Shown here: in pieces, positions 8,781 through 48,604 of the stretch
Position numbering within the stretch: the first letter of the stretch is position 1
Layout of the letters: each line of letters opens with the position of its first letter
NCBI RefSeq assembly: GCF_028369105.1
Contig: NZ_JAQNDO010000001.1
Coordinates: forward strand, 4,122,501-4,186,500
DNA from: Polyangium mundeleinium
GTDB taxonomy: Bacteria; Myxococcota_A; Polyangia; Polyangiales; Polyangiaceae
Length of the DNA: 64,000 bases
Direction: 5' to 3'
The notes under the pieces: model-generated
The model's input: the letters and a program-made list of their open reading frames with translations, nothing else
What the model was told of the DNA's origin: nothing
Databases searched by the model: none
Translations under genes and position numbers: made by a program

Positions 8781-9955
8781 CGAATGGCTCGTCACCCGCC
8801 AGGCTGTAGGTACAGTCGATCTCGGCTGCGTCAGCACCTGTGGCGTCTGCGCAAGCCGAGCGCGAGGGCGGCGATCGCGGGGAGCGCGAGGGCCGGGGAG
8901 GGGTTCGCGTCGGGGCCGGTCGAGATGCGCATAAGCCCGTGGAGATGGCCTCGCCGTCGGGGGCGGCCGGCGCGCCCCCCTGGCGCGACCTCGTCACGCG
9001 ACGAGCGGCGTGGCTTGTCGCGTGATCGGCGCGTGTTACGCCGCACGATCATGTTCATGTTCACACCTTCGAGCCGCTCGACCGCCTGCGCGACGTGGTC
9101 GGCGCCTCGCGGTTCGCGTTTGGCTTCCGAGGTTCAGGAAGGCTGCGTAGCGGCGGAGGTCGAAGAGTACAGCCTTCGAAGTCGGAGGGAGGAGACTTCG
9201 ATCACGGGCTCGCCGCCTTCGAAGTCGGAGGGAGGAGACTTCGATCACGGGCTCGCCGCCTTCGAAGTCGGAGGGAGGGGACTTCGATCACGGGCTCGCC
9301 GCCTTCGAAGTCGGAGGGAGGGGACTTCGATCACGGGCTCGCCGCCTTCGAAGTCGGAGGGAGGGGACTTCGATCACGGGCTCGCCGCCTTCGAAGTCGG
9401 AGGGAGGGGACTTCGATCACGGGCTCGCCGCCTTCGAAGTCGGAGGGAGGGGACTTCGATCACGGGCTCGCCGCCTTCGAAGTCGGAGGGAGGGGACTTC
9501 GATCACGGGCTCGCCGCCTTCGAAGTCGGAGGGAGGGGACTTCGATCACGGGCTCGCCGCCTTCGATATCAAAGACGCCAGGCTCGATCACGAAGGGGGG
9601 CGGCCTCGTCGACGAACGCACCGAGGTTGCCAGCGAGGTCCGTTGCTTCGTCTACGTTGTCGCGGATAGGTATTTGTCTTTACGTGTCCGCGAGTACGTT
9701 CCAGGCTCGCACGGGAGACCGGGCTCGCAAGGTGACGGGCAAGCGCCTGTCACGAGATGACACCCTGGCGCATCACCCAGGGAGCCCGTGGAGTTCAAAG
9801 CCGAGATCGAGCAAGCCGAGGGGCTCGGCCGCATCCTCCCTGTCGTGGACGATGCCTCGGCGACCTCCCCGACGGGCTCCGGGTTCTCCACGTGGTGAGG
9901 ATAGAACCCAGGTGCGCGAGAGCTTGGTGCTCGGTTGAATGGCCTACGCCATCAA
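8781..9955. other. Gene-poor stretch around the 43-bp repeat block
   Basis: About 1.2 kb with no convincing gene. Frames are long here only because of the GC-rich repeat block at 9173-9570. On the minus strand, 8831-8920 encodes a hydrophobic helix followed by arginines and a stop (PALALPAIAALALGLRRRHR), similar to a sortase-like C-terminal anchor but without a gene body before it. On the plus strand a GTG at 9788 opens a 36-codon frame ending at 9898 with ordinary-looking protein sequence but no ribosome site. I treat both as possible remnants. Confidence 0.5.
9173..9570. repeat. 43-bp tandem repeat, nine full copies
   Basis: Nine head-to-tail copies of a 43-base unit start at 9173, 9216, 9259, 9302, 9345, 9388, 9431, 9474 and 9517, with a partial tenth at 9560. 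Copies are almost identical; the first two share an A where the other seven carry G (GGAGGAGAC against GGAGGGGAC). Each unit contains an 8-bp inverted repeat (TCGAAGTC / GACTTCGA) around a purine-rich GGAGGGAGGG centre. The period is not a multiple of three, so each copy is read in a new frame; every 129 bases the frame returns. This argues against protein coding and for a structural or recently expanded element. Confidence 0.9.
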
Positions 9956-10981
9956 TCAGCGCGTCTTGGATTTCGCGGTCGCCTTCTTTGCAGGCGCCTT
10001 CTTTGCGGTCGCCTTCTTTGCAGGCGCCTTCTTTGCGGGCGCCTTCTTCGCGGGCGCCTTCTTGGCCGCGGGCTTCTTGGTTGCCAGGAGCGTGCGGAAG
10101 CAGTCGGCCAGTTTTTGGTGCCGAGGCAAAAGGGACTTGCGCCAATCGAGCTTCGTCGTTGCGGCGGTGCCTGCCTCGAGCGACGCGATTTCACGATCGA
10201 TTTGCTCGAACGCTTGCGTCAACACCTCGATCGGCAGGCCGCGAAGGCTCTCGTTCAGGCCACCATTCCCCGTGATCGCGTCCCAGAGTTGTTGCACGGC
10301 TTCATCGGCGACGCTTGCACGCCGGTCGGCCCACGCCTCGAGCAGGAGCGAGAACCGCCCCGCTTCGCCGGCCGCGTCGGCGCCCTGGTAACGCTCGGCT
10401 TTGCCCGCGCGGAAAGCCTCGTACGCCGCGATGGCTTCCTCCGGCACGGGCACTGCGGGGTTGAATGTCCACGCCGGCGGGTACGGTCCACGCAAGGACA
10501 GGTGCTTCACCGCGGCGACCGCGAGCCGCTCGTCCTCCCCTCGAAGAAAAGCGGCGACGGCGTCGAGCCAGCGCTCCTTCGCCTCGAGCACCTTCGCGAA
10601 CACCTCGGTTTCGGCCTTGGCGTGGTGAAGGGGGCCGAAGGGCTCGGGCTCGTTCCGGACCTGCTTCGGTTTCCGGCTCGTCTGGACCGTGTCCGCCTGC
10701 CAGAGCGTCCCGGGCGGGGCGTGTTCGAGGAACGCCGCGAGGCGGCCGCACATTTTGTCGACCGTCTCGACATCGTACCTCGTGAGCCCGTTCGCAGAGC
10801 GGGACATAGGATCGAGCATGGGCAGGTGTTCCGCGAAGAAAGAGCCCTCGACGACGCGAACAGGGTTGATTCCTCGCCCGCAGAAACCACAGACCGGATC
10901 GAGCAGGGTGCGGTCTGGCGTGACACGAGCGCCGTTGTGTTCATGGTCGGCGGCGACGAGTGTAGGCAGAATTTTCGGCAT
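9956..10981 (-). CDS. Unrecognised protein with histone H1-like C-terminal tail
   Basis: A 341-residue protein of unknown core. Near the N terminus is a CGFCG pair (about residues 31-35) that could bind zinc together with other cysteines. The middle is helical and acidic (LHHAKAETEVFAKVLEAKERW). The last 40 residues are a Lys/Ala/Pro tail built from repeats of AKKAP or AKKAT, very like histone H1 and the H1-like DNA-binding proteins of myxobacteria, so DNA or RNA binding is likely. The ATG at 10981 has AGGGGAGC just upstream. The gene lies directly downstream of a truncated P450, whose open frame runs over its first 158 codons or so in another register. Confidence 0.7.
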   Translation of the reverse strand: MPKILPTLVAADHEHNGARVTPDRTLLDPVCGFCGRGINPVRVVEGSFFAEHLPMLDPMSRSANGLTRYDVETVDKMCGRLAAFLEHAPPGTLWQADTVQTSRKPKQVRNEPEPFGPLHHAKAETEVFAKVLEAKERWLDAVAAFLRGEDERLAVAAVKHLSLRGPYPPAWTFNPAVPVPEEAIAAYEAFRAGKAERYQGADAAGEAGRFSLLLEAWADRRASVADEAVQQLWDAITGNGGLNESLRGLPIEVLTQAFEQIDREIASLEAGTAATTKLDWRKSLLPRHQKLADCFRTLLATKKPAAKKAPAKKAPAKKAPAKKATAKKAPAKKATAKSKTR

Positions 10982-11039
10982 GCTCCCCTATAAGGCAGAG
11001 CCCGTCCGTTTGTCACGTCGTAGAACGCTCTGCACTCGA

Positions 11040-12024
11040 GGAATACGCAGGCCAACGAGGGACCCGCCGGGTAGAGCCGCAGCACCTCCTTGATCACCTG
11101 CAGCGTGTACGGGAGCTGCCGCAGCTCGTTCGCGGTCGGCATCCGTCCGCCGAGCACGCGATCGAGCTCCTCGTGCAGGCGCTCGGTCACGTTCGGGTTC
11201 GTCGCGAGCGCGTACCAAGCAAACGTCACGGTGCGCGCGGTGGTCTCGTGCCCCGCGAAGAACGTGGTCATCGACTCGTCGCGTAGCAAACTCTCCGACA
11301 TCGCCTGGCCGGTCTCGTCATCGCGCGCCTTCATCAGCCGCGAAAGGAGGTCATCGGGCCACTGCGCCTCGTCGGTGCCGCGTCGCTGCACGATGAGCGC
11401 GCGGATCGAGCGATGCACCATCTCCCGCGCCGCGAGGTACTTGCGATTTTTCGAGGTGGGCAGCCACATGGGGAGCGTCGGACCCGCCATCGGGTCGTTG
11501 ACGAACGAGAGCATCGTCTCCACCGCGTCCTTCATCTGGTGGATCGACTCCATCGTCTCCGTGCTGAACATCGCCTTCAGAATGATGGAGGCGGTGACAT
11601 TGGTCATCTCCTCGGCGATCTCCACCTCGGTGCCCTTGCTGGCGAGCGCCTCCCAGCGCTCCAAGAGGCGTGCGCCATCGCGAATCATCAGCTCCGCGTA
11701 CGCCTGGACGCCCTTCGGTGTGTAGAAAGGCGCCATCAATTTGCGCTGCCGACGCCAGAGATCCCCGTTGCTCGCGACGATGCCGTTGCCGATCAGGTAC
11801 TTTCGCACCGCGTCGTAGCTGCCGAGTTTTTCGTACTTCTGCCGATGGCTGACGCTGATGCGCTCCACCGCGTCAGGGTGCATCGCGAAGACCAGCGTGC
11901 GCCGACCGATGCGCACCTGGAACACGTCCCCGTGCTGGCGCCACTGCCTCCCCACGAAATCGAGGAATCCGAGGGTTCGAACGCCGTTGAGGAACTGCAG
12001 TAGATGGGGGCCGGGGGCTTGCAT
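11040..12024 (-). pseudogene. Cytochrome P450, truncated before the heme-binding loop
   Basis: From the ATG at 12024 (GGAGGG seven bases upstream) about 327 residues read as a clear class-II-like P450: the N-terminal region LLQFLNGVRTLGFLDFVG, the C-helix motif NGDLWRRQRKLMAPFY, the oxygen-binding I helix FFAGHETTARTV and the K-helix ExxR motif (IKEVLRLYPAGP). Homology stops right after that motif. About 120 residues are missing, including the FGxGxRxCxG loop whose cysteine ligates heme, so the product cannot be an active P450. The frame remains open to 10507, but the sequence after about 11040 is unrelated. A deletion that joined this gene to the region before the H1-like gene would explain it. 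Confidence 0.85.
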
Positions 12025-12383
12025 GCTCAGGCCCTCCCACAGGCCGCCACGCCCAACGTGCGTGCGGAGAAGAGAGGAACGACGGCACAAGCGGCGGCAA
12101 CGGGCCTCAGCGCATTCGGCCTCATACGGGAATCTGCTCGGGGTGAATTGGTTCAGCGGAGGGCGGGATCGACGGATCCTCACAAGAGTACCCGGCCGGG
12201 GAACACCGTCAAGATTGCCGGGAGCTCGAATCACGGATTCTGCGCCGAATCGCTCTTCCCAGGGAAACCGCAACGGCGCGAAAGACGATGCGTACATGGG
12301 CCCCGTGCGCGCGCGTGGCGAGGGCGCGTGCCTTGCAATGGCCCACGTGCCCGCGCCGCCGTGGGCATGGGGGGGACAGGAGC
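12025..12383. promoter_or_regulatory. Divergent intergenic region
   Basis: About 360 bases between the minus-strand P450 remnant and the plus-strand beta-propeller lipoprotein. It must hold the promoter of the downstream lipoprotein run and any surviving promoter of the P450. No clear hairpin, direct repeat or recognised promoter element stands out. The last bases (GGGGGGACAGGAGC) are the ribosome-binding site of the next gene. Confidence 0.4.
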
Positions 12384-13772
12384 ATGCGGGGGGGACTGCG
12401 CATCCTGACGTTTGCTGCGGGCGCCCTGGGGGGCGTCGGCTGCGGGGAGGGCGTCCTCGACACCGGAATGGCGGTCCACGGCAATGCCCTCCTGCCGACT
12501 GCGGGCCGCGGCGAGGTCGTCTGGGCCCGCGCCTTCGGGGATCCTGCTGCATACACGCACGGGAGCGCGGTGGCCGTAGGGCCCGCAGATGAGATCGTGA
12601 TCGCTGGGGATGCGGGAGGGACCCTCGATCTCGGCCTCGGGCCCATTGTATCGCCCACGGGCGAGGGGCGGCTCTTCGTCGCCGGCCTCGATCCGCAGGG
12701 GCGAACCCGGTTCGGCGTACGTTTCGACAACGCGCTGATCGAGGGCCCCAAGGGCATGGCCGTGGGTGCCGGGGGCCACGTCTTCGTCGGCGGCAGGCTG
12801 CTCGGCACGACCGATTTCGGCGCGGGCCCCCTCGGCTCCAGCGGCGACGCGTTCGTCCTCGCGCTCACGCCCGACGGAAAGACCGCATGGGCGCGCACCT
12901 TTTCGGCCACGCTGAGGGCTTCGGTGACGAGCCTCGCCGTCGATCCCCGGGGCAATGTCGTCCTTGCCGGCGTTTTCCGCGGCACCATGGTGCTCGGCAC
13001 GAACGCATTTTCCGGCGCGGGGAACATATTTCTCGCCCGCCTCGATCCGCAGGGAAACATCACCTGGAGCAAGGGTCTTCCCGGCATGAACCCGCAATAC
13101 GTGCGCGCTGTTGCCGTGGACCGGGAGGGGCACGTGGTGATCGCGGGCTCCTTTTACGATAGCATCGATCTCGGCGACGGCCGGCGCGAGAGCGCCGGGG
13201 ACACGGACGTGTTCGTCGCGAAATTCACCGAAGCGGGCACGCTCCTCCATGGCCTTCGTTTTGGCGGATCGCGGCACGATACGGCTCCCGACCTCGCCCT
13301 CGACGTCGAAGGAAACGCATTCCTGGCCGGCCTCTTTCGTGGTGAGCTCGATCTCCGCGACGCACCCCTCTCCGCGACCGAGCCCTCCCTGTATCTCGCG
13401 AAGCTCGATCCCCAGGGACGCACGCTCTTCGCGCGTGGCTTCCAGGGCTCGACCCATCGCCCATTGCTTGCAGTCGACGCGAGCGGGGAGCTGCGGCTCG
13501 GGGGCGGCTTCCGGGGCACGCTGCACCTCGGGGACGTTCCGCTCGAAGCATCGGGCGACGACGTTTTTCTCGCCAAGCTCACGTCGGACGGCACCGTCCT
13601 CTGGCGCCACGGGTATGGCGACGACGAGTTCCAGGCGGCGAGCAGCCTCGCCGTGGACCCGCAAGGCAATACCCTCGTGATCGGCAGCTTCCGGGGGACG
13701 CTCGATTTCGGGGGCGAGCCGCTCGTCGGCCAGGAGCCGTCCGACGCATTCATCACCAAGCTCTCTCCGTGA
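12384..13772 (+). CDS. Beta-propeller (SBBP-type repeat) lipoprotein
   Basis: A 462-residue predicted lipoprotein: signal peptide with lipobox GGVGC, then seven or eight repeats of about 50 residues. Each repeat has the pattern of a small hydrophobic strand, xxVDxxGNxVxAGxFxGTxDLG, then DxFxAKLDPQGxTxWxR, for example AVDPRGNVVLAGVFRGT. This is the SBBP/NHL-like beta-propeller seen in many surface proteins of myxobacteria. A role in binding at the outer surface is an inference; no catalytic residues are visible. ATG 12384 is preferred over an in-frame ATG at 12288 because it gives a proper signal peptide and follows GGACAGG. It is followed after 11 bases by a related gene. Confidence 0.8.
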   Translation: MRGGLRILTFAAGALGGVGCGEGVLDTGMAVHGNALLPTAGRGEVVWARAFGDPAAYTHGSAVAVGPADEIVIAGDAGGTLDLGLGPIVSPTGEGRLFVAGLDPQGRTRFGVRFDNALIEGPKGMAVGAGGHVFVGGRLLGTTDFGAGPLGSSGDAFVLALTPDGKTAWARTFSATLRASVTSLAVDPRGNVVLAGVFRGTMVLGTNAFSGAGNIFLARLDPQGNITWSKGLPGMNPQYVRAVAVDREGHVVIAGSFYDSIDLGDGRRESAGDTDVFVAKFTEAGTLLHGLRFGGSRHDTAPDLALDVEGNAFLAGLFRGELDLRDAPLSATEPSLYLAKLDPQGRTLFARGFQGSTHRPLLAVDASGELRLGGGFRGTLHLGDVPLEASGDDVFLAKLTSDGTVLWRHGYGDDEFQAASSLAVDPQGNTLVIGSFRGTLDFGGEPLVGQEPSDAFITKLSP

Positions 13773-13783
13773 CGGAGGATGCC

Positions 13784-15133
13784 ATGCAGCGCTTTGCACC
13801 CGCCATGATCATCGGATGTGCCGCAGTCTCCCTGGGAAGCTGCTCGGAGGGCGAGCCTGGGACGGTGGAGGCTCCCATGACCTCGGTCGTTTGTCCGGAA
13901 GACGGTCCGGTCACGGGCGCGGAGGTGTTTACGCGCAGCTTCGTCGTGGATACGATCCTGCGTGACATCGGGCTCGGCGTGGGAGTGGACGCGGCGGGCA
14001 ACACCCTTGTGGCGGGCACCTTCCGCAATACCGTCGATCTAGGCGGTGGCCCCCTCGTCGCGGCCGGCGGCCACGACCTGTTCGTTGCCAAGCTCGATCC
14101 CGCGGGCGCGACCGTCTGGAGCGTGCGTTTTGGCAGCCAGGAGGACGAGCGATTCGCCGCCCTCGCGGTGGACGAGGCGGGAGGCATCTGGCTCGTGGGC
14201 AGCCATGGTCTCTGGGGGAGTGGGTTTGACGTGATAGCGCTGGATTCCACGGGCAAGCAGCGCTTTTCCCGCACCTATGGCGGCGGCGACTATCAGGTCG
14301 TGAACGCGGCGGCGGTCGACCGGGAAGGCTCCCTCCTCCTCGTCGGACATTACGAGGGGCGAGATCTCGACCTCGGCCTCGGTCGGCTGGGCGTGTACGG
14401 GGAGGGATTTCTCGCGAAGATCGGCCGCGCGGGGAACACCGTTTTTGCTCGGCCGATCTCGGGATCGAGCGACAATGATCTGAGGGACGTCGCGGCCGCG
14501 CCGGACGGCGACGTCGTTCTCGCGGGGTCGATGCGGTCCGTGCTCTCGCTCGACGGAATCGAAGGTGCGGGCGCAGGGGCTACGGACGCCTTCGCGGCGC
14601 GGTTCGATGCGCGCGGGCAGCCGCGCTGGATCCGTCGGTTTGGCGGTCCTGAATTCGACGAGGGACACGCGGTGGCCGTCGATGGGTTGGGGAATACATG
14701 GCTCACGGGGGGATTCGAGCAGATCGCTGATCTCGGTGCCGGCCCCATCGCCGCCCGGAATGGCTTCGAGCACTTCGTGGTCGTGCTCGATCCCGCCGGC
14801 CGTCCCTTGCGCCATCGCCTCGGCTTGCCTCGACGAATCGCGGCCGACGGCGCCGGCAATGTGGTCCTCGCAGGGGAATTCGATGGCACCCTCGAGGGCT
14901 TCGGCGACACGCTGACGAGCGGGGGCGGCACGGACGCCTATCTCGTGAAGCTCGGCCAAACGGGGGAGGTGCGCTGGTCCAAGCGTGTCGGTGGCGCCAA
15001 ATCGGAGACCGTGCGTGATCTCGCAGTGAATTGCCGGGGCAGGATTGCGCTCGTGGGCTCGCGCGTGGATCCCACGACTTTGCACGAATTCGAGGGGCCC
15101 ATCGAGATGTTTGTTATGGCGCTTGCGCCCTGA
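13784..15133 (+). CDS. Beta-propeller (SBBP-type repeat) lipoprotein, second copy
   Basis: A 449-residue paralogue of the preceding gene. The signal MQRFAPAMIIGCAAVSLGSC ends at a lipobox, and the mature part has the same 50-residue repeats (GVDAAGNTLVAGTFRNTVDL, DLFVAKLDPAGATVWSVRFG, AVDGLGNTWLTGGF). The start at 13784 has GGAGG eight bases upstream and lies 11 bases after the previous stop, so the two are cotranscribed, probably from a local duplication followed by divergence. It differs by a C-terminal Cys pair region (VNCRGRIALVGS) and by a longer N-terminal linker before the first repeat. Confidence 0.8.
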   Translation: MQRFAPAMIIGCAAVSLGSCSEGEPGTVEAPMTSVVCPEDGPVTGAEVFTRSFVVDTILRDIGLGVGVDAAGNTLVAGTFRNTVDLGGGPLVAAGGHDLFVAKLDPAGATVWSVRFGSQEDERFAALAVDEAGGIWLVGSHGLWGSGFDVIALDSTGKQRFSRTYGGGDYQVVNAAAVDREGSLLLVGHYEGRDLDLGLGRLGVYGEGFLAKIGRAGNTVFARPISGSSDNDLRDVAAAPDGDVVLAGSMRSVLSLDGIEGAGAGATDAFAARFDARGQPRWIRRFGGPEFDEGHAVAVDGLGNTWLTGGFEQIADLGAGPIAARNGFEHFVVVLDPAGRPLRHRLGLPRRIAADGAGNVVLAGEFDGTLEGFGDTLTSGGGTDAYLVKLGQTGEVRWSKRVGGAKSETVRDLAVNCRGRIALVGSRVDPTTLHEFEGPIEMFVMALAP

Positions 15134-19455: not shown

Positions 19456-20019
19456 ATGCGGCAGATACGACGTGCCTTTACGTGGACCGCGCTCATGGCA
19501 ATCGTGCCGGGAGGTGCTTGGGCGCAATCAACTCCGCCCGCGGCAGGGCAGCCGCAGAAGCCGGGGATCGAGGCGGCGCCCCACGGCGGTCGGCCCGGCA
19601 GGCCCGGTGAAGGCCAGGGCGCGGCCGCGCGCAGGCCCGGGGAGCCCGAAAGGCCCGTTGAGCCGCAGGGGAGGCCGCCCGGTGAGCCGCAGGGGAAGCC
19701 CGGGGACACGCTCCGCCCGGGGCAGCCGGATGCGGGCGCGCCGGCCGCGCCGCGGAGGGAGGACGACACCGGTCGCGCCGCCCGGCGGAAGGCCCAGGTC
19801 GACAAGGAGCGCCCCGCGGTGGAGGCGTCGCTCAAGCGCCAGCCGATGGATGAAGCGCTCCAGCAGGAGATGAAGCACCACGCGGAGCGTATCGCGCGGC
19901 TCGAGCGGATTCAGAAGCTCGCCGAGCAGTCCGGCGACACGGCCACGGCCGAGCGGGCCAAGAAGGTCCTGGAACAGGAAAACGCGCGGTATTCGAAGTT
20001 CATCCAGTCGCGAAAGTAG
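19456..20019 (+). CDS. Exported Pro/Gly/Arg-rich protein with coiled coil
   Basis: A 187-residue exported protein of unknown function. A clear signal peptide (MRQIRRAFTWTALMAIVPGGAWA) is followed by about 80 residues rich in Pro, Gly, Arg and Gln with collagen-like GxPxRPG spacing, then a charged helical C-terminal half (MKHHAERIARLERIQKLAEQ) that should form a coiled coil. The start follows GGAGGTCGGTG. Upstream in-frame codons to 19309 are not included because they would precede the signal peptide. The next gene begins seven bases after its stop, so they form a two-gene unit with another exported protein. Confidence 0.7.
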   Translation: MRQIRRAFTWTALMAIVPGGAWAQSTPPAAGQPQKPGIEAAPHGGRPGRPGEGQGAAARRPGEPERPVEPQGRPPGEPQGKPGDTLRPGQPDAGAPAAPRREDDTGRAARRKAQVDKERPAVEASLKRQPMDEALQQEMKHHAERIARLERIQKLAEQSGDTATAERAKKVLEQENARYSKFIQSRK

Positions 20020-20026
20020 GCGATTC

Positions 20027-20248
20027 ATGAAGCATTTGCTCTGGATTGGTATTTGTGTCCTCCTCGGCTGCGAGGGCCGCGCGGGAAGCCAGGAGAGCAC
20101 GCCCGCGGGCGCGGCCTCCCAGGCGAGCGCCGTCGCGGACACCGACATCGCCGTCCCCGCCGATTACGAGGACAAGGCGACGCGCAAGATCACCACGGAC
20201 AATTACAAGAAGGAGCTCGACGATCTCGAGCAAAAGGTCGGGAAATGA
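20027..20248 (+). CDS. Small lipoprotein
   Basis: A 73-residue protein with a textbook lipoprotein signal (MKHLLWIGICVLLGC, Cys15). The mature part is short and polar: a Ser/Ala linker and a charged helix ending KKELDDLEQKVGK. It may be anchored in the outer membrane with its helix pairing with the coiled coil of the preceding protein; this is inference from the shared transcript and composition. It ends 16 bases from the stop of the convergent cheA gene. Confidence 0.7.
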   Translation: MKHLLWIGICVLLGCEGRAGSQESTPAGAASQASAVADTDIAVPADYEDKATRKITTDNYKKELDDLEQKVGK

Positions 20249-38593: not shown

Positions 38594-38774
38594 TTCCGTG
38601 ATGGGCGAAGGCAGGAGGCGCCCGACTTCGTCCCGATTCCCCTCGACGGGGACGCGGGGACGACGTGCCATCTTGTCCGCGCATTTGCAGGAAGGGTGCA
38701 GCGACGGGCGCTGCAGGACCGAGGATGGTCGGGCCGCCATCCCAGCCGGTGATTCCGCCGGCGAGGGATGATGC

Positions 38775-40182
38775 ATGTCGATCAGGAACAACCCGGGGCG
38801 GAGCCCCCTGCCTTCGTCGCCTCCCGAGGCCTGGGAGTCGCTCTTGCGTTTCACGCGGCTCGCGGGCCGTCCGCTCGAGCGTTTCCTCCGGATCGAGGCC
38901 GCGAGCGGCATTCTGCTGCTCGTCGCGGCGGCCGTCGCGCTCCTATGGACAAACTCGCCGTGGGCCGGGAGTTATTTCCACCTCTGGAACACCCCGATCG
39001 GGATCCACCTTCGAGCGGACGCTCGCATGGTTCGTCAACGACGGGCTGATGGTGATTTTCTTTTTCGTCGTCGGAATGGAGATCCGCCGCGAGATCCACC
39101 ACGGCGAGCTTTCCGAGTGGCGTCGCGCGGCGCTCCCCGCCGTGGCTGCGCTGGGCGGGATGCTCGCGCCAGCGGCGCTGTACCTCGCCTTCGCCGGGGC
39201 TCCCGCGACCCGATCGGGGTGGGGCGCCCCAATGGCGACGGACATCGCCTTCGCCGTCGGTATTCTCACGCTGCTCGGCAAGCGCGTCCCAGCGGCGCTG
39301 CGCGTGCTCCTGCTCGCGCTCGCCGTCATCGACGACCTCGGGGCCATCGTCGTCATCGCGCTGTTTTATTCGTCGGGAATCGTGGTCTCGGGGTTGATCG
39401 TCGCCGCGGCAGGGTTTGTCGGGGTGCTTCTGATGCAGCGGTTCGGCGTGCGCGCGAAGCTCGCGTACGTCCCGCCGGCCCTCGTCGCGTGGGCCGGCGT
39501 CTATGCGGCCGGCGTGCATCCGACGATCGCCGGCGTGCTCGTCGGGCTCGTGACGCCGGTGCGCGCGTGGCTCGGGCCGGACGGGTTTGTTGTCGGCGTC
39601 CGCGGAGAAATCGAGCAGCTCGCGAAGGCCCCGTCGGAGGCGCTCTCGTCCCATGCGCTCGCGGGGACCCTTCGTCACGTGGACGCGCTGCGCCGGGAAG
39701 CCATGTCGCCCGCCGAGAGCCTGATCGAGGCCCTGCACCCCTGGGTGGCCTTCGGCATCATGCCGGTGTTCGCGCTGGCGAATGCGGGCGTTTCCGTGAC
39801 GGGCGGCTCGCTCGATCCCGTCGCGTGGCGTGTGCTCGTGGCCGTCGCCGTGGGGCTCGTCGTGGGCAAACCGCTCGGCGTGCTCGTCGCGAGCGCGATC
39901 GTGTTGCGCTTGCGCCTCGCGACATTGCCGCGGGGCATGCGCTTGCGGCACGTCGTGGTGCTGGGGGTCGTCGCGGGCGTGGGGTTCACGATGGCATTGT
40001 TCATCGCGCAGCTCGCTTTTTCGGACGCGTCGCTGCTCGCCGCGGCAAAGCTCGGCGTGCTCGCGGCGAGCGGCGCGGCGGCGATTGTTGGCCTCGTCCT
40101 CGGCCGATGGCTGCTCGCGCCCGTGCAGGAGGCGGGATCTGCGCAGACGGCGGACGAGGCGGAGAGCTCGACGGACGCGTGA
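38775..40182 (+). pseudogene. nhaA: Na+/H+ antiporter NhaA, frameshifted
   Basis: The NhaA family exchanges Na+ for H+ across the inner membrane. The N-terminal part begins at 38775 ([20 protein letters not shown], then LWNTPIGI) in one frame. From about 39000 the protein continues in the +1 frame ([20 protein letters not shown]) to the stop at 40182, with the key Asp pair intact ([17 protein letters not shown]) and all later membrane segments present. A small indel near GGGATCCACC, between these parts, breaks the frame. Either the gene is newly inactive or the base is a sequencing error; the rest shows no decay, which favours a recent or artificial shift. Joined length is about 468 residues, normal for the family. 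Confidence 0.85.
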
Positions 40183-45399: not shown

Positions 45400-45487
45400 G
45401 GTTGGCCCTGGGCGTGCCCTCGGCTCGCCGCGGCGTAGCTTCACCGGTCCGTCAGGAAGGGCAGGGGCGTGCCAGGCGCGGGACGTC

Positions 45488-46059
45488 CTACGCCCCCCGC
45501 CCCGCCCGAGACTCCGTCCTCGAAACGCGTGCATCGTCCGCGTGCCTGCGGAAAACCTCCCCGAGACCCGCGCGCCCCTCGGAACGACGAATTCCCGCCC
45601 GGCGCCGAGCTCCATGTCCATGCCATTGATCCGCAGCACGTAGCTGCCTTCCAGGACGGCGAGGTATTCGTCGGCGTCGCGCCACTGCTCGCCCGTGTCC
45701 GCGTCGGTCTTTGCGTGGCACAGCAAGATCTGCGTGCCATCCGCGCCGTCGAACACGTAGGCCTCGACGCCGGGGATGCGCAGAGAATCCGCCGCGACGT
45801 GGTTCGCCGCGCTCGTCATGAAGGCCGGGAAGCTGCCCAGGCCGAAACGCGCGGCGTACTCTGCATTGAGCGCGGAGAAGCGCGCCTTGTCGAATCCGGC
45901 GGCGGGCGTTCCGTCGACCGCTGCCTCCAGGTTGTCGAGGCAGAAGTGCCAGCCCGTGGCGTCGCGGGCGACGTTCGCGCGATCCGCCGGGATCGTCGTG
46001 AAGCTGAAGCGGTCGAAGCTGCTCGTCTCTGTCCCCGGCGCGTCTGCATGGCTCGCCAT
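45488..46059 (-). CDS. Cupin-domain protein, 3' end uncertain
   Basis: From ATG 46059 about 185 residues look genuine: a helical N-terminal half (FSALNAEYAARFGLGSFPAF) and a cupin barrel with GEQWRDADEYLAVLEGSYVL, NGMDMELGAGREFVVPRG and SAGTRTMHAF. The natural family end should come a few residues after TRTMHAF. In the given sequence that frame has no stop and runs antisense through the MYXO-CTERM gene. A run of six C (plus strand 45493-45498) lies just before; losing two or gaining one base there would give a TAG at 45488, while losing one gives TGA at 45441. I end the gene at 45488 as the shortest reading. Function unknown; cupins of this kind may bind metal or sense small ligands. Confidence 0.6.
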
Positions 46060-46350
46060 CGACTATTTCGATCCGAAGGGAGCCCCCTATCGGATCGGCC
46101 TCGCGCAGGACGGATGCGAGCTCTTCCCCTCGATCTTTCGTTCTCGGACTTCGTCGCCTCCTTTGGTCGCTTCGGGGTGGCCCGCTGGTACCTCGCCTTC
46201 GCCGGCAAGAAGGCCGAGAAGGCGATGAACATCGATTTCGCGGACGAGATCGAGAAGAGCCTCGCGGACTATGCCGGCGCGTTCCCGGCAGAGGTCGCGG
46301 CGCTCCTCCAGCGGGTGGATCGGCGGCGAAGACCCAACGAGTCGGGTTGA
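46043..46350 (+). pseudogene. Gene fragment with frameshift, plus strand
   Basis: Codons from 46043 read SAWLAIDYFDPKGAPYRI then GLAQDGCELFP; near 46125 the sense switches to a second frame reading LDLSFSDFVASFGRFGVARW and on through YLAFAGKKAEKAMNIDFADE to a stop at 46350. Both halves look like real protein, and their join is natural if one base is missing. There is no start codon with a ribosome site and the 5' part is cut by the divergent cupin gene, so this appears to be the 3' remainder of a lost gene, perhaps of the SMI1/KNR4-like type, which is a guess from the DYF..KG..Y pattern. Confidence 0.5.
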
Positions 46351-46373: not shown

Positions 46374-47654
46374 ATGGCGTGGATGGATTCCTTCGTCGCT
46401 TTCATCCCGCTCTCGAACTGGCTGCGGGGCTTCGACCGCTACGGGATGCGGTATTCGAAGGCGTTGATCGGTGAATCGACGTTTCCCGACGCATTCTACA
46501 TGCTGAAGGAGGACGAGCGCTGGGCGCCGGGGCTCGAAAAGGCGCGGCGGCTCGTGGCGAAGCTCGGTCGGCCGAAGGATCGCGTGGTGGCGCTGCGGGC
46601 GCGGCTCCCGGTCGGGCCCGCGGGGATGCGCCCGAACGACGTGACCGGCACGGGCATTGGCTGGCGCTGGCCGGCAAGCGAGATCCCGCTCTCCGGCGTG
46701 GCGTGGGTCGACGAGAAGGATTCGCTCGTGCCCACGCGGCACGAGGAGATCACCGCGGAGGCCTTCCGCCTCGATGACGACGGGCTCGTCGAATGGGCGA
46801 AGTGCCGGCCGCGGAGCGTGTCGGTCCTGCCCGTCGCGAAGGCCTGCCAGGCGCGTTGTGCCTTCTGCTTCTCGAAGGCGAGCGTGTCCGATCTCGCGCG
46901 CCAGCGGAGCGGCACGCTCGACCAATACCTCGCCTGGGCGAAGCTCGCGAAGGAGCGGGGCGCCGAGCGCGCCGTCATCACCGGGGGCGGCGAGCCGACG
47001 CTGCTCGAACCCGAAAAGCTCCGCGCGCTCGTGCGTGGCCTCGCGGGGTTGTTCCCGACAACCCTGCTCATCACGAACGGCGCGCGCCTCGATCTCGCGC
47101 AACTCGAAGCCCTCCGAGAAGCCGGGCTCACCACGCTCGCGGTGAGCCGGCACGGCGTAACGCGAGAAGACGATGCGCGGATCATGGGGATCGAGGTCGA
47201 CTCCGGAGCGCTCGGACGTGCGCCGGGGCTCCGCACGCGGGCGATTTGTGTGCTCCAGCGAGGGGGCGTCGACGACGCCGCGAAGGTGCGCGCCTACCTC
47301 GAACGCAGCGCCGCCGAGCGGTTTCAGGAGGTTTGTTTCAAGGAGCTTTACGTTTCGAGCCTCTCGGAAAACCCGTGGGCGCCGAGCCGCGCGAACCAGT
47401 TTTGCGAAACGAACCAGGTGCCGCTCTCGCTCGTGCTCCACACGCTCGCCACGCTCGGCTTCGAGAAGCGCGCGGAATTGCCCTGGGGGAGCCCCGTGTT
47501 CGAAGGGGAGATCAAAGGCCACGCGCTCCGCGTGGCCGCGTATACGGAGCCCTCGGTCGGCTGGGAGCGGACGCATGGGATTGTACGCTCGTGGAACGTG
47601 ATGGCCGACGGAACCTGCCTCGCCTCGCTGGAAGATCCGAGCTCCACGTTATGA
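46374..47654 (+). CDS. Radical SAM protein
   Basis: A 426-residue cytoplasmic radical SAM enzyme. The [4Fe-4S] cluster motif CxxxCxxC is at residues 158-165 (KACQARCAFCFSKAS), followed by the SAM-binding GGGEPTLLEPEKL and the TLLITNGARLDL strand. An unusual 150-residue N-terminal region (WLRGFDRYGMRYSKALIGES; VALRARLPVGPAGM) precedes the barrel, and no SPASM-like cluster of cysteines follows it. The stop overlaps the ATG of a small aminotransferase gene in ATGA, so the two proteins are made together and probably act in one pathway. The substrate is unknown; no precursor peptide gene is seen nearby. The ribosome site is weak, and an ATG three codons later is possible. Confidence 0.82.
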   Translation: MAWMDSFVAFIPLSNWLRGFDRYGMRYSKALIGESTFPDAFYMLKEDERWAPGLEKARRLVAKLGRPKDRVVALRARLPVGPAGMRPNDVTGTGIGWRWPASEIPLSGVAWVDEKDSLVPTRHEEITAEAFRLDDDGLVEWAKCRPRSVSVLPVAKACQARCAFCFSKASVSDLARQRSGTLDQYLAWAKLAKERGAERAVITGGGEPTLLEPEKLRALVRGLAGLFPTTLLITNGARLDLAQLEALREAGLTTLAVSRHGVTREDDARIMGIEVDSGALGRAPGLRTRAICVLQRGGVDDAAKVRAYLERSAAERFQEVCFKELYVSSLSENPWAPSRANQFCETNQVPLSLVLHTLATLGFEKRAELPWGSPVFEGEIKGHALRVAAYTEPSVGWERTHGIVRSWNVMADGTCLASLEDPSSTL

Positions 47655-48604
47655 ACCACGAAACCTTCCTCGCGCGCCGCGCTGCGCTTCAGGCCGCGCG
47701 GCCCTCGCTCGTCGACCTCGCGGAGCTGAACGTCTACCGGAGCCTCGGGCGTGCCTTCCCCGCCATTTTGCCATCGACCCACCCGGAAGCGCCTTATCGT
47801 TGTCACCTCGCGGAGCGATTCCTCGCGCACCTCGATCTCCCGCAGGCGCTGAAGCCGCGCACGCAGGTCAGCCACGGCGTCCGCCGTTCGCTCCGCGCGC
47901 TCTTCGGGCTCCTCGCAAAGCAGAACGCGCGTGTCGGCGTGCCCGCCGATGTGTACCCCGTGTATCTGCACCTCGCGGCGGAGGCAGGCGCGACGATCGT
48001 CCCGTGGGAGGCGCGCGTCGGTCTTCCCGCGCTCGACACGCTCGATGCATTGTTGATTTGCGAGCCCCTGAAGCCTTGGGGCTCGGCGCTCACGCCCCAC
48101 GAAGCCGACGCGCTTCGGCGCTGGGCGCGCGCGGACGCACGTCGTATGCTGATCCTCGATTCGGTCTACGCGACGCCGCCGACGGAGGTCTCGCGGGAAT
48201 TGCTCGAGGACGAGAGCGCCGTTTTCCTCACGTCGCTGTCGAAGGGATGGCTCGTCCCGGATCACGCGGGGATTTGCATCGTGCCCGAGCGCTTCCGGAA
48301 GGAGACGCGAGACACATTCGCCGAGCTGCCGAAAGACGAACCGCGGCTCCGTATCGGGTATGCGGCGCTCACCGAACATGCTGCGCGCCCCCGGGAGGTC
48401 TCGGCCGCCTTGCGCGAGCGCGCGCGCAGGCTCGACGCGCTGACGAGCGCGAGGCCCGAGCTGAAAGCCTCCCCGTGCATCGGCTACTTCGCGACATCGT
48501 CGAGGTCGTTCCACGAATTGCTGGAAATGGGCATCCTCGGCGTCCCCGCGACGGTCTTCGGCGGGCCCGAGGACCTCAGCGTGCTGTCGAGCCTCGAAGG
48601 CTGA
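47651..48604 (+). CDS. Aminotransferase class I/II-like protein, compact
   Basis: A 317-residue PLP enzyme of fold type I. The Schiff-base lysine is in VFLTSLSKGWLVPDHAG and the cofactor Asp in MLILDSVYATPP; earlier motifs are GVRRSLRALFGLL and VYPVYLHLAAEAGATIVPWE. It is about 60-80 residues shorter than usual class I/II aminotransferases, the C-terminal small domain being reduced (CIGYFATSSRSFHELLEMGI). The start codon overlaps the stop of the radical SAM gene (ATGA), which supports a dedicated two-enzyme step. Substrate unknown. Frame is open upstream through the radical SAM gene but that part is noncoding in this register. Confidence 0.8.
   Translation: MNHETFLARRAALQAARPSLVDLAELNVYRSLGRAFPAILPSTHPEAPYRCHLAERFLAHLDLPQALKPRTQVSHGVRRSLRALFGLLAKQNARVGVPADVYPVYLHLAAEAGATIVPWEARVGLPALDTLDALLICEPLKPWGSALTPHEADALRRWARADARRMLILDSVYATPPTEVSRELLEDESAVFLTSLSKGWLVPDHAGICIVPERFRKETRDTFAELPKDEPRLRIGYAALTEHAARPREVSAALRERARRLDALTSARPELKASPCIGYFATSSRSFHELLEMGILGVPATVFGGPEDLSVLSSLEG

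Follow-up and report, generated by a model that had tools for sequence, protein, structure and literature searches.

What does a bacterium make with a radical S-adenosylmethionine (SAM) enzyme and a compact pyridoxal 5′-phosphate (PLP) enzyme, encoded by two overlapping genes of no recognised pathway? The question is raised by a gene pair in the window, the whole 64-kb stretch of DNA analysed here (C1:4122501-4186500), a segment of a 13.25-Mb myxobacterial genome. An earlier note on this stretch had described the genes as overlapping by ATGA, which was borne out by open reading frames (ORFs) at 46374-47654 and 47651-48604, and had suggested that they may be a small new biosynthetic or modification pair. 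As judged by sequence comparison, the latter is a fair reading.

The pairing itself was found to be constant. In all 17 intact full-length copies read, that of the window included, the PLP gene lies directly 3′ of the radical SAM gene. Fifteen of these junctions are overlaps of 4 bp, reading ATGA or GTGA; in genome G709 the genes overlap by 23 bp, and in Agitococcus a 12-bp gap separates them. A search with the PLP-family profile produced a match in 12 of the 12 genomes or records given to it. The identity matrices of the two proteins were closely correlated (r = 0.989 for the 17 copies, 0.977 for 10 spread copies), the 17 not being independent and including five from Polyangium, five from Myxococcus or Citreicoccus and two from Embleya. 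Ratios of non-synonymous to synonymous substitution rates (dN/dS) in seven close comparisons stood at 0.10-0.24 (radical SAM gene) and 0.12-0.36 (PLP gene), so both genes appear to be maintained. Chance neighbours are ruled out by these low ratios (0.10-0.36) and by the pairing in 17/17 intact copies. A conserved, co-diverging, overlapping two-gene unit under purifying selection is thus well supported.

The carriers were identified in samples of 59, 377, 321 and 240 genomes, in which the best first-look candidates were scored for larger genomes; Actinomycetota were covered through the plasmid collection. The radical SAM gene was present in six of the 59 near genomes (E ≤ 1e-20): five of the six of the genus carried it, none of the family's remaining 31 genomes, from 31 genera, did so, and the 22 genomes from other families of the order gave one partial match (39%). 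Polyangium provides the nearest named relatives, with four loci whose radical SAM proteins are 92-96% identical. When each GTDB species was represented by one genome, 13 radical SAM loci were obtained, in Polyangium (four), Myxococcus (four), Citreicoccus (one), a deltaproteobacterial metagenome-assembled genome (MAG), a Verrucomicrobiota-binned contig, an Agitococcus MAG and Sorangium; plasmid records added two, both on Embleya megaplasmids. Within the class of the Agitococcus MAG, which we take to be the Gammaproteobacteria, 2 of 321 genomes were positive (Agitococcus and G709), and within the phylum Verrucomicrobiota 1 of 240, the MAG already found.

In the Myxococcota, the radical SAM protein was matched at E 1e-18 or better in 13 of the 377 genomes. 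Four held full-length copies (G000, G004, G005 and G356), four held cousins, termed group B, and five gave weak matches (68.8-73.3 bits); the 1.5-kb flanks of the weak loci, L040-L044, held no match to the PLP-family profile. Sorangium cellulosum So0008-312 keeps a decayed pair (L029 1719-2447), in which residues 1-55 and 283-389 of the radical SAM protein and 221-316 of the PLP protein can be recognised. Genome G001, of the same genus as the window, has the right flank, a different left side and no pair. The earlier note had proposed a search for the pair in other genomes; it recurs in unrelated bacteria, megaplasmids and giant phages, and so is not confined to this strain.

The phage copies are on large contigs. 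Besides the pair, a 465-kb IMG/VR contig (L068) encodes the large subunit of a terminase (phrog_2, E 2.6e-52). About 7 kb before the pair it has a protein that matches ATPase and clamp-loader families of phages, and about 7 kb beyond it, at 19485-20120, a match to a metal-dependent phosphohydrolase (phrog_990, E 5.6e-24). On the 195-kb contig binned in the Verrucomicrobiota MAG are genes for GroEL, a DNA polymerase of phage type and helicases (DnaB-like and others), and a match to a minor head protein. It has no phrog_2 match, five such matches in that MAG being on other contigs, and no capsid or terminase gene was found among 13 scanned proteins of this contig, for which 241 genes were predicted in ten pieces. 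Our interpretation is a large phage or phage-like element. Two further phage radical SAM genes (L071, L072) are 29-30% identical over the core, and these loci gave no match to the PLP-family profile. At L071, a large viral contig, the radical SAM gene is near ORFs resembling KptA (RNA 2′-phosphotransferase) and nicotinamide phosphoribosyltransferase (9917-12121, 12907-14493).

Beyond the two genes, the neighbourhoods share little. All-against-all comparison of stop-to-stop ORFs of at least 60 aa from the 17 loci revealed, among the matches listed, no constant third gene across lineages, only the pair and its antisense shadows being common. The exceptions among these matches were single ORFs shared between Embleya and Myxococcus, between Embleya and G709, and between the phage contigs. 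The two Embleya neighbourhoods are unlike each other. In M. dinghuensis (L023), two genes about 5 kb upstream, ArsR- and SRPBCC-type by the look of their translations, resemble upstream Polyangium genes (32-56%). Among 812 segments of at least 20 aa within 1 kb of the pair, there was no between-lineage match at E 1e-3. No common precursor peptide gene is thus visible within that distance at that segment length, and the earlier note had seen none adjacent to the pair; an unlinked, shorter or fast-changing precursor would escape such a comparison. A cluster for a ribosomally synthesized and post-translationally modified peptide was considered unlikely, there being neither a match to SPASM nor a shared small ORF within 1 kb. 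In the Pfam and NCBIfam searches, neither protein exceeded the cut-off of any known pathway family, so that the match of both to a well-known pathway, by which the note would have been refuted, did not turn up.

The radical SAM protein is a clear member of its superfamily. Pfam Radical_SAM covers residues 154-265 (E 1.2e-13; 52 bits against a cut-off of 29.5), and the CX3CX2C cysteines that mark the superfamily are invariant in all 17 members. SPASM cysteines had been said to be absent, and this stood: even with E values up to 1 allowed, no SPASM model of Pfam gave a match. It would be wrong, however, to say that there are no further conserved cysteines: Cys292 and Cys321 are invariant (17/17), and Cys415 is present in 16 of 17, with Val in L068. 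An alignment of seven family proteins also shows an invariant C-terminal R-S-W-N...D-G...S-L-E. Among Pfam families beyond Radical_SAM and NCBIfam equivalogs, no curated cut-off was exceeded. The best NCBIfam models were MoaA (39.8 bits, cut-off 284.05) and viperin/pVip (37.6 bits for the window protein and 41.2 for L068, cut-off 180), both falling far short. A known defence system was likewise rejected, as PADLOC yielded only weak matches to pVip (E 1.5e-9).

Searches of the PDB with the family profile placed AbmM (E 2.7e-6), viperin and MoaA on top. Twelve of the 18 profile rows were AbmM (one), viperin or viperin-like proteins (nine) and MoaA (two); the other six were HemN, GDGT-MAS, SkfB, two anSME sequences and PqqE. 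An AlphaFold2 model built from seven sequences had a mean predicted local distance difference test score (pLDDT) of 78.9, with values below 50 at residues 154-177, the cluster loop. Its neighbours in VIA-align were tetraether synthase (7tol, Z 19.5), MoaA (1tv7, 17.8), viperin (16.9), SuiB (16.9) and SkfB (16.7), and the RNA enzyme RlmN was also among them. On these alignments, the radical SAM core is nearest to MoaA, viperin, AbmM and tetraether synthase. In MoaA, a second [4Fe-4S] cluster is held by a C-terminal triad of Cys. Such a triad was not found in the family, Cys415 being the only Cys in that region, and a MoaA-like C-terminal cluster hairpin, considered by analogy, was rejected.

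The earlier note had remarked on an unusual 150-residue N-terminal region of this enzyme, and indeed residues 1-150 match no Pfam family. The N-terminal domain spans some 135 aa, modelled with block pLDDT values of 74-94. Searches of Pfam and the PDB by sequence gave no convincing match (best E 0.096 and 0.2), nor one to any RNA- or peptide-binding family. Its profile, run against samples of 377 and 369 genomes, found its own family alone and one marginal hit (E 0.0089), so that in the genomes sampled the domain is seen solely as a fusion to this radical SAM core. It is present in the intact family members that were translated or aligned, and the VIA-align rows scarcely cover it. An ADP-ribosyltransferase-like fold, considered from the strand pattern, was supported neither by Pfam (eight members, E up to 10) nor by the PDB profile search. 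The radical SAM family and this domain are unnamed in Pfam, NCBIfam, PADLOC and PHROGs as searched.

The second protein was assigned through its homologues. The window protein itself has no Pfam match; the homologues L028 and L030 exceed the Aminotran_1_2 cut-off (38.3 and 30.9 against 19.7 bits), and the family profile matched 61 PDB sequences at E ≤ 0.01, many of them aminotransferases (best 2.6e-10). The model, of pLDDT 65.1, has Plu4 (Z 14.7), CobD (13.1) and MppP/RohP (12.8) as structural neighbours. Neither the window protein (30.1 bits) nor L028 (44.3 bits) reaches the NCBIfam equivalog cut-off for CobD (290.55). For the PLP site, the reference was 10 of 14 aminotransferases found in the same genome, an alignment of low identity (hhalign global, 99.5%, E 4.6e-22 against the ten segments). 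The Schiff-base Lys198, the pyridine-N Asp170 and the O3′ Tyr173 are preserved in 17/17 copies. The Asn of the NP-N-TG motif of ordinary aminotransferases is replaced by Lys141 in 16 copies and by Ile in one. The C-terminal carboxylate Arg is missing from the aligned strand in 17/17; the chain stops at about that point, and the C-terminal helix is absent. The two marks of a classical class I amino-acid aminotransferase, that Asn and that Arg, are therefore lacking. The protein had been called shorter than its family, and at 317 aa it is, the ten own-genome segments having 357-399 aa; this is largely because its chain ends at about the strand in which ordinary aminotransferases have their carboxylate Arg. 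A PLP enzyme that is no classical amino-acid aminotransferase is plausible, and because the usual Arg for the alpha-carboxylate is lost, its substrate is probably something other than a plain alpha-amino acid.

The group B cousins, found in four Myxococcota genomes (G058, G193, G224 and G318; loci L059-L062), allowed the pair to be compared with a related lineage. Group B and group A, as we term the 17 copies, match over 286 columns of the radical SAM protein (hhalign 100%, E 3.2e-54), and group B is without the N-terminal domain. Loci L059 and L062 run into contig ends, and the whole operon is visible in L060 and L061, in the order MoxR-type ATPase, unknown, a protein with HEXGHH and vWA-like motifs, two unknowns, radical SAM and an aminotransferase-like protein. 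The ATPase of L061 carries AAA_3 and AAA_lid_2. The metallopeptidase-like HEXGHH and the vWA-like D-x-S-G-S were read by eye in a protein with no Pfam match. When the seven L061 proteins were searched against the 17 group A loci, the radical SAM protein matched in 17/17 and the other six in none at E 1e-3; as a control, L060 was matched by all seven.

The aminotransferase-like partner of group B has Arg at the position aligned with the Schiff-base Lys in 4/4 loci. It is tied to the PLP fold only by motif reading and by weakly matching aminotransferases in the PDB profile search (E 0.0033), and no homology to the group A PLP family was detected (hhalign probability 0.5%, BLAST none). Nor is the group B protein encoded upstream of the radical SAM gene detectably the N-terminal domain (0.3%). 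Since the related radical SAM lineage also keeps a PLP-fold-like neighbour, an old functional link is suggested, in which one of the two sides would have lost or changed its catalytic role.

Our preferred reading, to which we give a probability of about 0.4, is that the pair is a self-contained, horizontally mobile module of two enzymes that would carry out consecutive steps on one substrate supplied by every host. We infer a two-step chemistry: the radical SAM enzyme would abstract a hydrogen and so oxidise or rearrange the substrate, and the PLP enzyme would then aminate its product (or eliminate from or decarboxylate it) without the usual Arg for an alpha-carboxylate. In aminoglycoside synthesis, BtrN and then an aminotransferase perform a radical SAM oxidation and a PLP-dependent amination, and the logic here would resemble theirs. 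A nucleotide or nucleotide-sugar would be the first-choice substrate, however weakly held, because most of the profile-nearest solved radical SAM enzymes act on nucleotides or nucleosides. Couples of radical SAM and PLP enzymes are usually embedded in long clusters. That this one stands alone in several phyla, plasmids and phages suggests a substrate present in every host, and therefore a reaction that probably touches core metabolism; it could surface in untargeted metabolomics of one operon. In Photorhabdus, a three-gene radical SAM cassette in changing surroundings is described as making a nucleoside antibiotic (PMC12691670). That example shows that minimal nucleoside cassettes exist, and is not homologous evidence for the pair. 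No description of the pair was found in the open PMC literature, subscription papers and preprints being outside that scope.

Several observations weigh against this reading. The permutation test, in which none of 5000 permutations reached either r, ignores shared ancestry. The pair is dispensable, since one of the six genus genomes lacks it and Sorangium keeps a broken remnant. By structure, the radical SAM enzyme matches a lipid enzyme best, and the peptide enzymes SuiB (16.9) and SkfB (16.7) do as well as viperin in Z; because lipid and peptide enzymes score alike by structure, the nucleotide is a weak guess. The PLP protein, without several classical residues, could be non-catalytic or regulatory, the group B partner has Arg for Lys, and the PLP model is poor (pLDDT 65.1).

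Among the alternatives, it is somewhat unlikely that the pair modifies a macromolecule (a tRNA, a protein of the ribosome or of a phage, or a peptide encoded at another locus), bound by the N-terminal domain, and no small molecule. Peptide enzymes (SuiB, SkfB) and an RNA enzyme (RlmN) among the structural neighbours would fit such a role, as would the presence of the domain in the intact members translated or aligned and the carriage of the pair by large phages. The cousin operon, with its MoxR-type ATPase and vWA-like-motif protein, points the same way, the radical SAM protein of another MoxR-vWA class being predicted to modify a peptide effector (PMC7159879). The domain, however, has no convincing RNA- or peptide-binding match by sequence, SPASM is not matched, and no segment of at least 20 aa is shared within 1 kb. 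A second alternative retains catalysis in the radical SAM enzyme alone and makes its PLP-fold neighbour degenerate, with a structural or regulatory part. The exchange of Asn for Lys (16/17), the absent carboxylate Arg (17/17), the truncated C-terminus and the Arg of the cousin partner (4/4) are consistent with it, but the PLP-site residues Lys, Asp and Tyr are kept in 17/17 and the gene is under purifying selection, making this improbable.

A role in conflict or counter-defence, in which a viperin-like altered nucleotide harms an invader or phage copies turn it on the host, is likewise doubtful. Of the weak matches, those to viperin-family models were among the best (37.6 and 41.2 bits; pVip E 1.5e-9), viperin is a structural neighbour, and the spread is patchy on phages and megaplasmids. 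Those scores nevertheless lie far under the 180-bit cut-off, MoaA matches equally well, and among the matches listed the pair has no constant neighbour, which leaves no defence gene as a regular companion. Viperins are also not known to need a PLP partner. The cousin sits in a MoxR/vWA-like operon, an arrangement tied to conflict systems (PMC7159879), yet no other protein of that operon is encoded near the group A copies. A bolder combination, that soil bacteria and giant phages exchange a two-gene module making an aminated nucleotide analogue as a conflict weapon or shield, with a cousin in a MoxR/vWA-like machine whose PLP partner is without the catalytic Lys, would be more doubtful still.

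The features of the pair are collected in Table 1. Comparison of starts among homologues offers Met4 as an alternative start of the radical SAM protein. This may be the true one, because the first ATG is not kept in frame in L017, whereas M-D/E-S-F is. Two observations were made elsewhere in the window. At 45465-46350, the window lacks, near 46003, a stretch that four relatives in Polyangium have; it measures 1.17 kb in L017 and about 2.8-3.2 kb in L018-L020. Its absence joins what is left of an SRPBCC/cupin-like gene (-) to the end of a SUKH/SMI1-looking gene (+), both named by eye; this end lies right before the pair, which is unharmed. An nhaA-I riboswitch, scoring 52.6 bits against a cut-off of 37, lies at 38694-38742, some 300 bases 5′ of the predicted start of a gene resembling an NhaA antiporter (39049-40182).

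Table 1. Features of the gene pair, in window coordinates.
Feature	Position	Strand	Basis
Radical SAM enzyme, 426 aa	46374..47654	+	ORF and Pfam; start possibly 46383
N-terminal domain of radical SAM enzyme, residues 1 to about 139	46374..46790	+	profile searches, model
CX3CX2C of radical SAM enzyme, residues 158-165	46845-46868	+	sequence motif
ATGA overlap, end of radical SAM gene and start of PLP gene	47651..47654	+	reading of junction
Putative compact fold-type I PLP enzyme, 317 aa	47651..48604	+	homologue profiles, alignment

Among known systems, the radical SAM enzyme shares with MoaA (GTP 3′,8-cyclase) the CX3CX2C motif and the core fold (Z 17.8, root-mean-square deviation (rmsd) 3.5, 252 residues over 139-419), and MoaA is its best NCBIfam match at 39.8 bits; it differs in lying far under the 284-bit cut-off and in its extra N-terminal domain, its PLP gene partner and its want of the C-terminal cluster Cys triad. 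Viperin and pVip, which make 3′-deoxy-3′,4′-didehydro nucleotides, are alike in core fold (Z 16.9), weak profile matches and patchy mobile spread, and unlike in that the pair's enzyme scores 37.6-41.2 of 180 bits, has the extra domain and is beside a PLP gene in 17/17. AbmM heads the PDB profile search (E 2.7e-6; Z 12.8) and the structural neighbours include BlsE (7vob, Z 16.1), but these nucleoside-antibiotic enzymes are 18-19% identical to it and have no such second gene with them, their own genes belonging to many-gene clusters. Tes/GDGT-MAS aligns with the highest Z over near the whole model (7tol, 19.5, rmsd 4.4, 297 residues), though with 13% identity, a lipid substrate and NCBIfam scores of 28-30 of 450 bits. 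The PLP protein shares the fold and the PLP Lys, Asp and Tyr with CobD, HisC and Aminotran_1_2 enzymes, CobD being its best NCBIfam match (30.1 and 44.3 bits); it lacks their carboxylate Arg and C-terminal helix and has Lys for the NP-N-TG Asn.

The MoxR-vWA conflict systems include one class with a radical SAM protein, and the word 'aminotransferase' does not occur in the main text of their description (PMC7159879). Group B differs from these FtsH-type ternary systems in that its operon encodes an aminotransferase-like protein, and group A in having no such genes nearby. The likeness lies with the cousin at L059-L062, where a radical SAM protein is again encoded in a MoxR/vWA-like operon.

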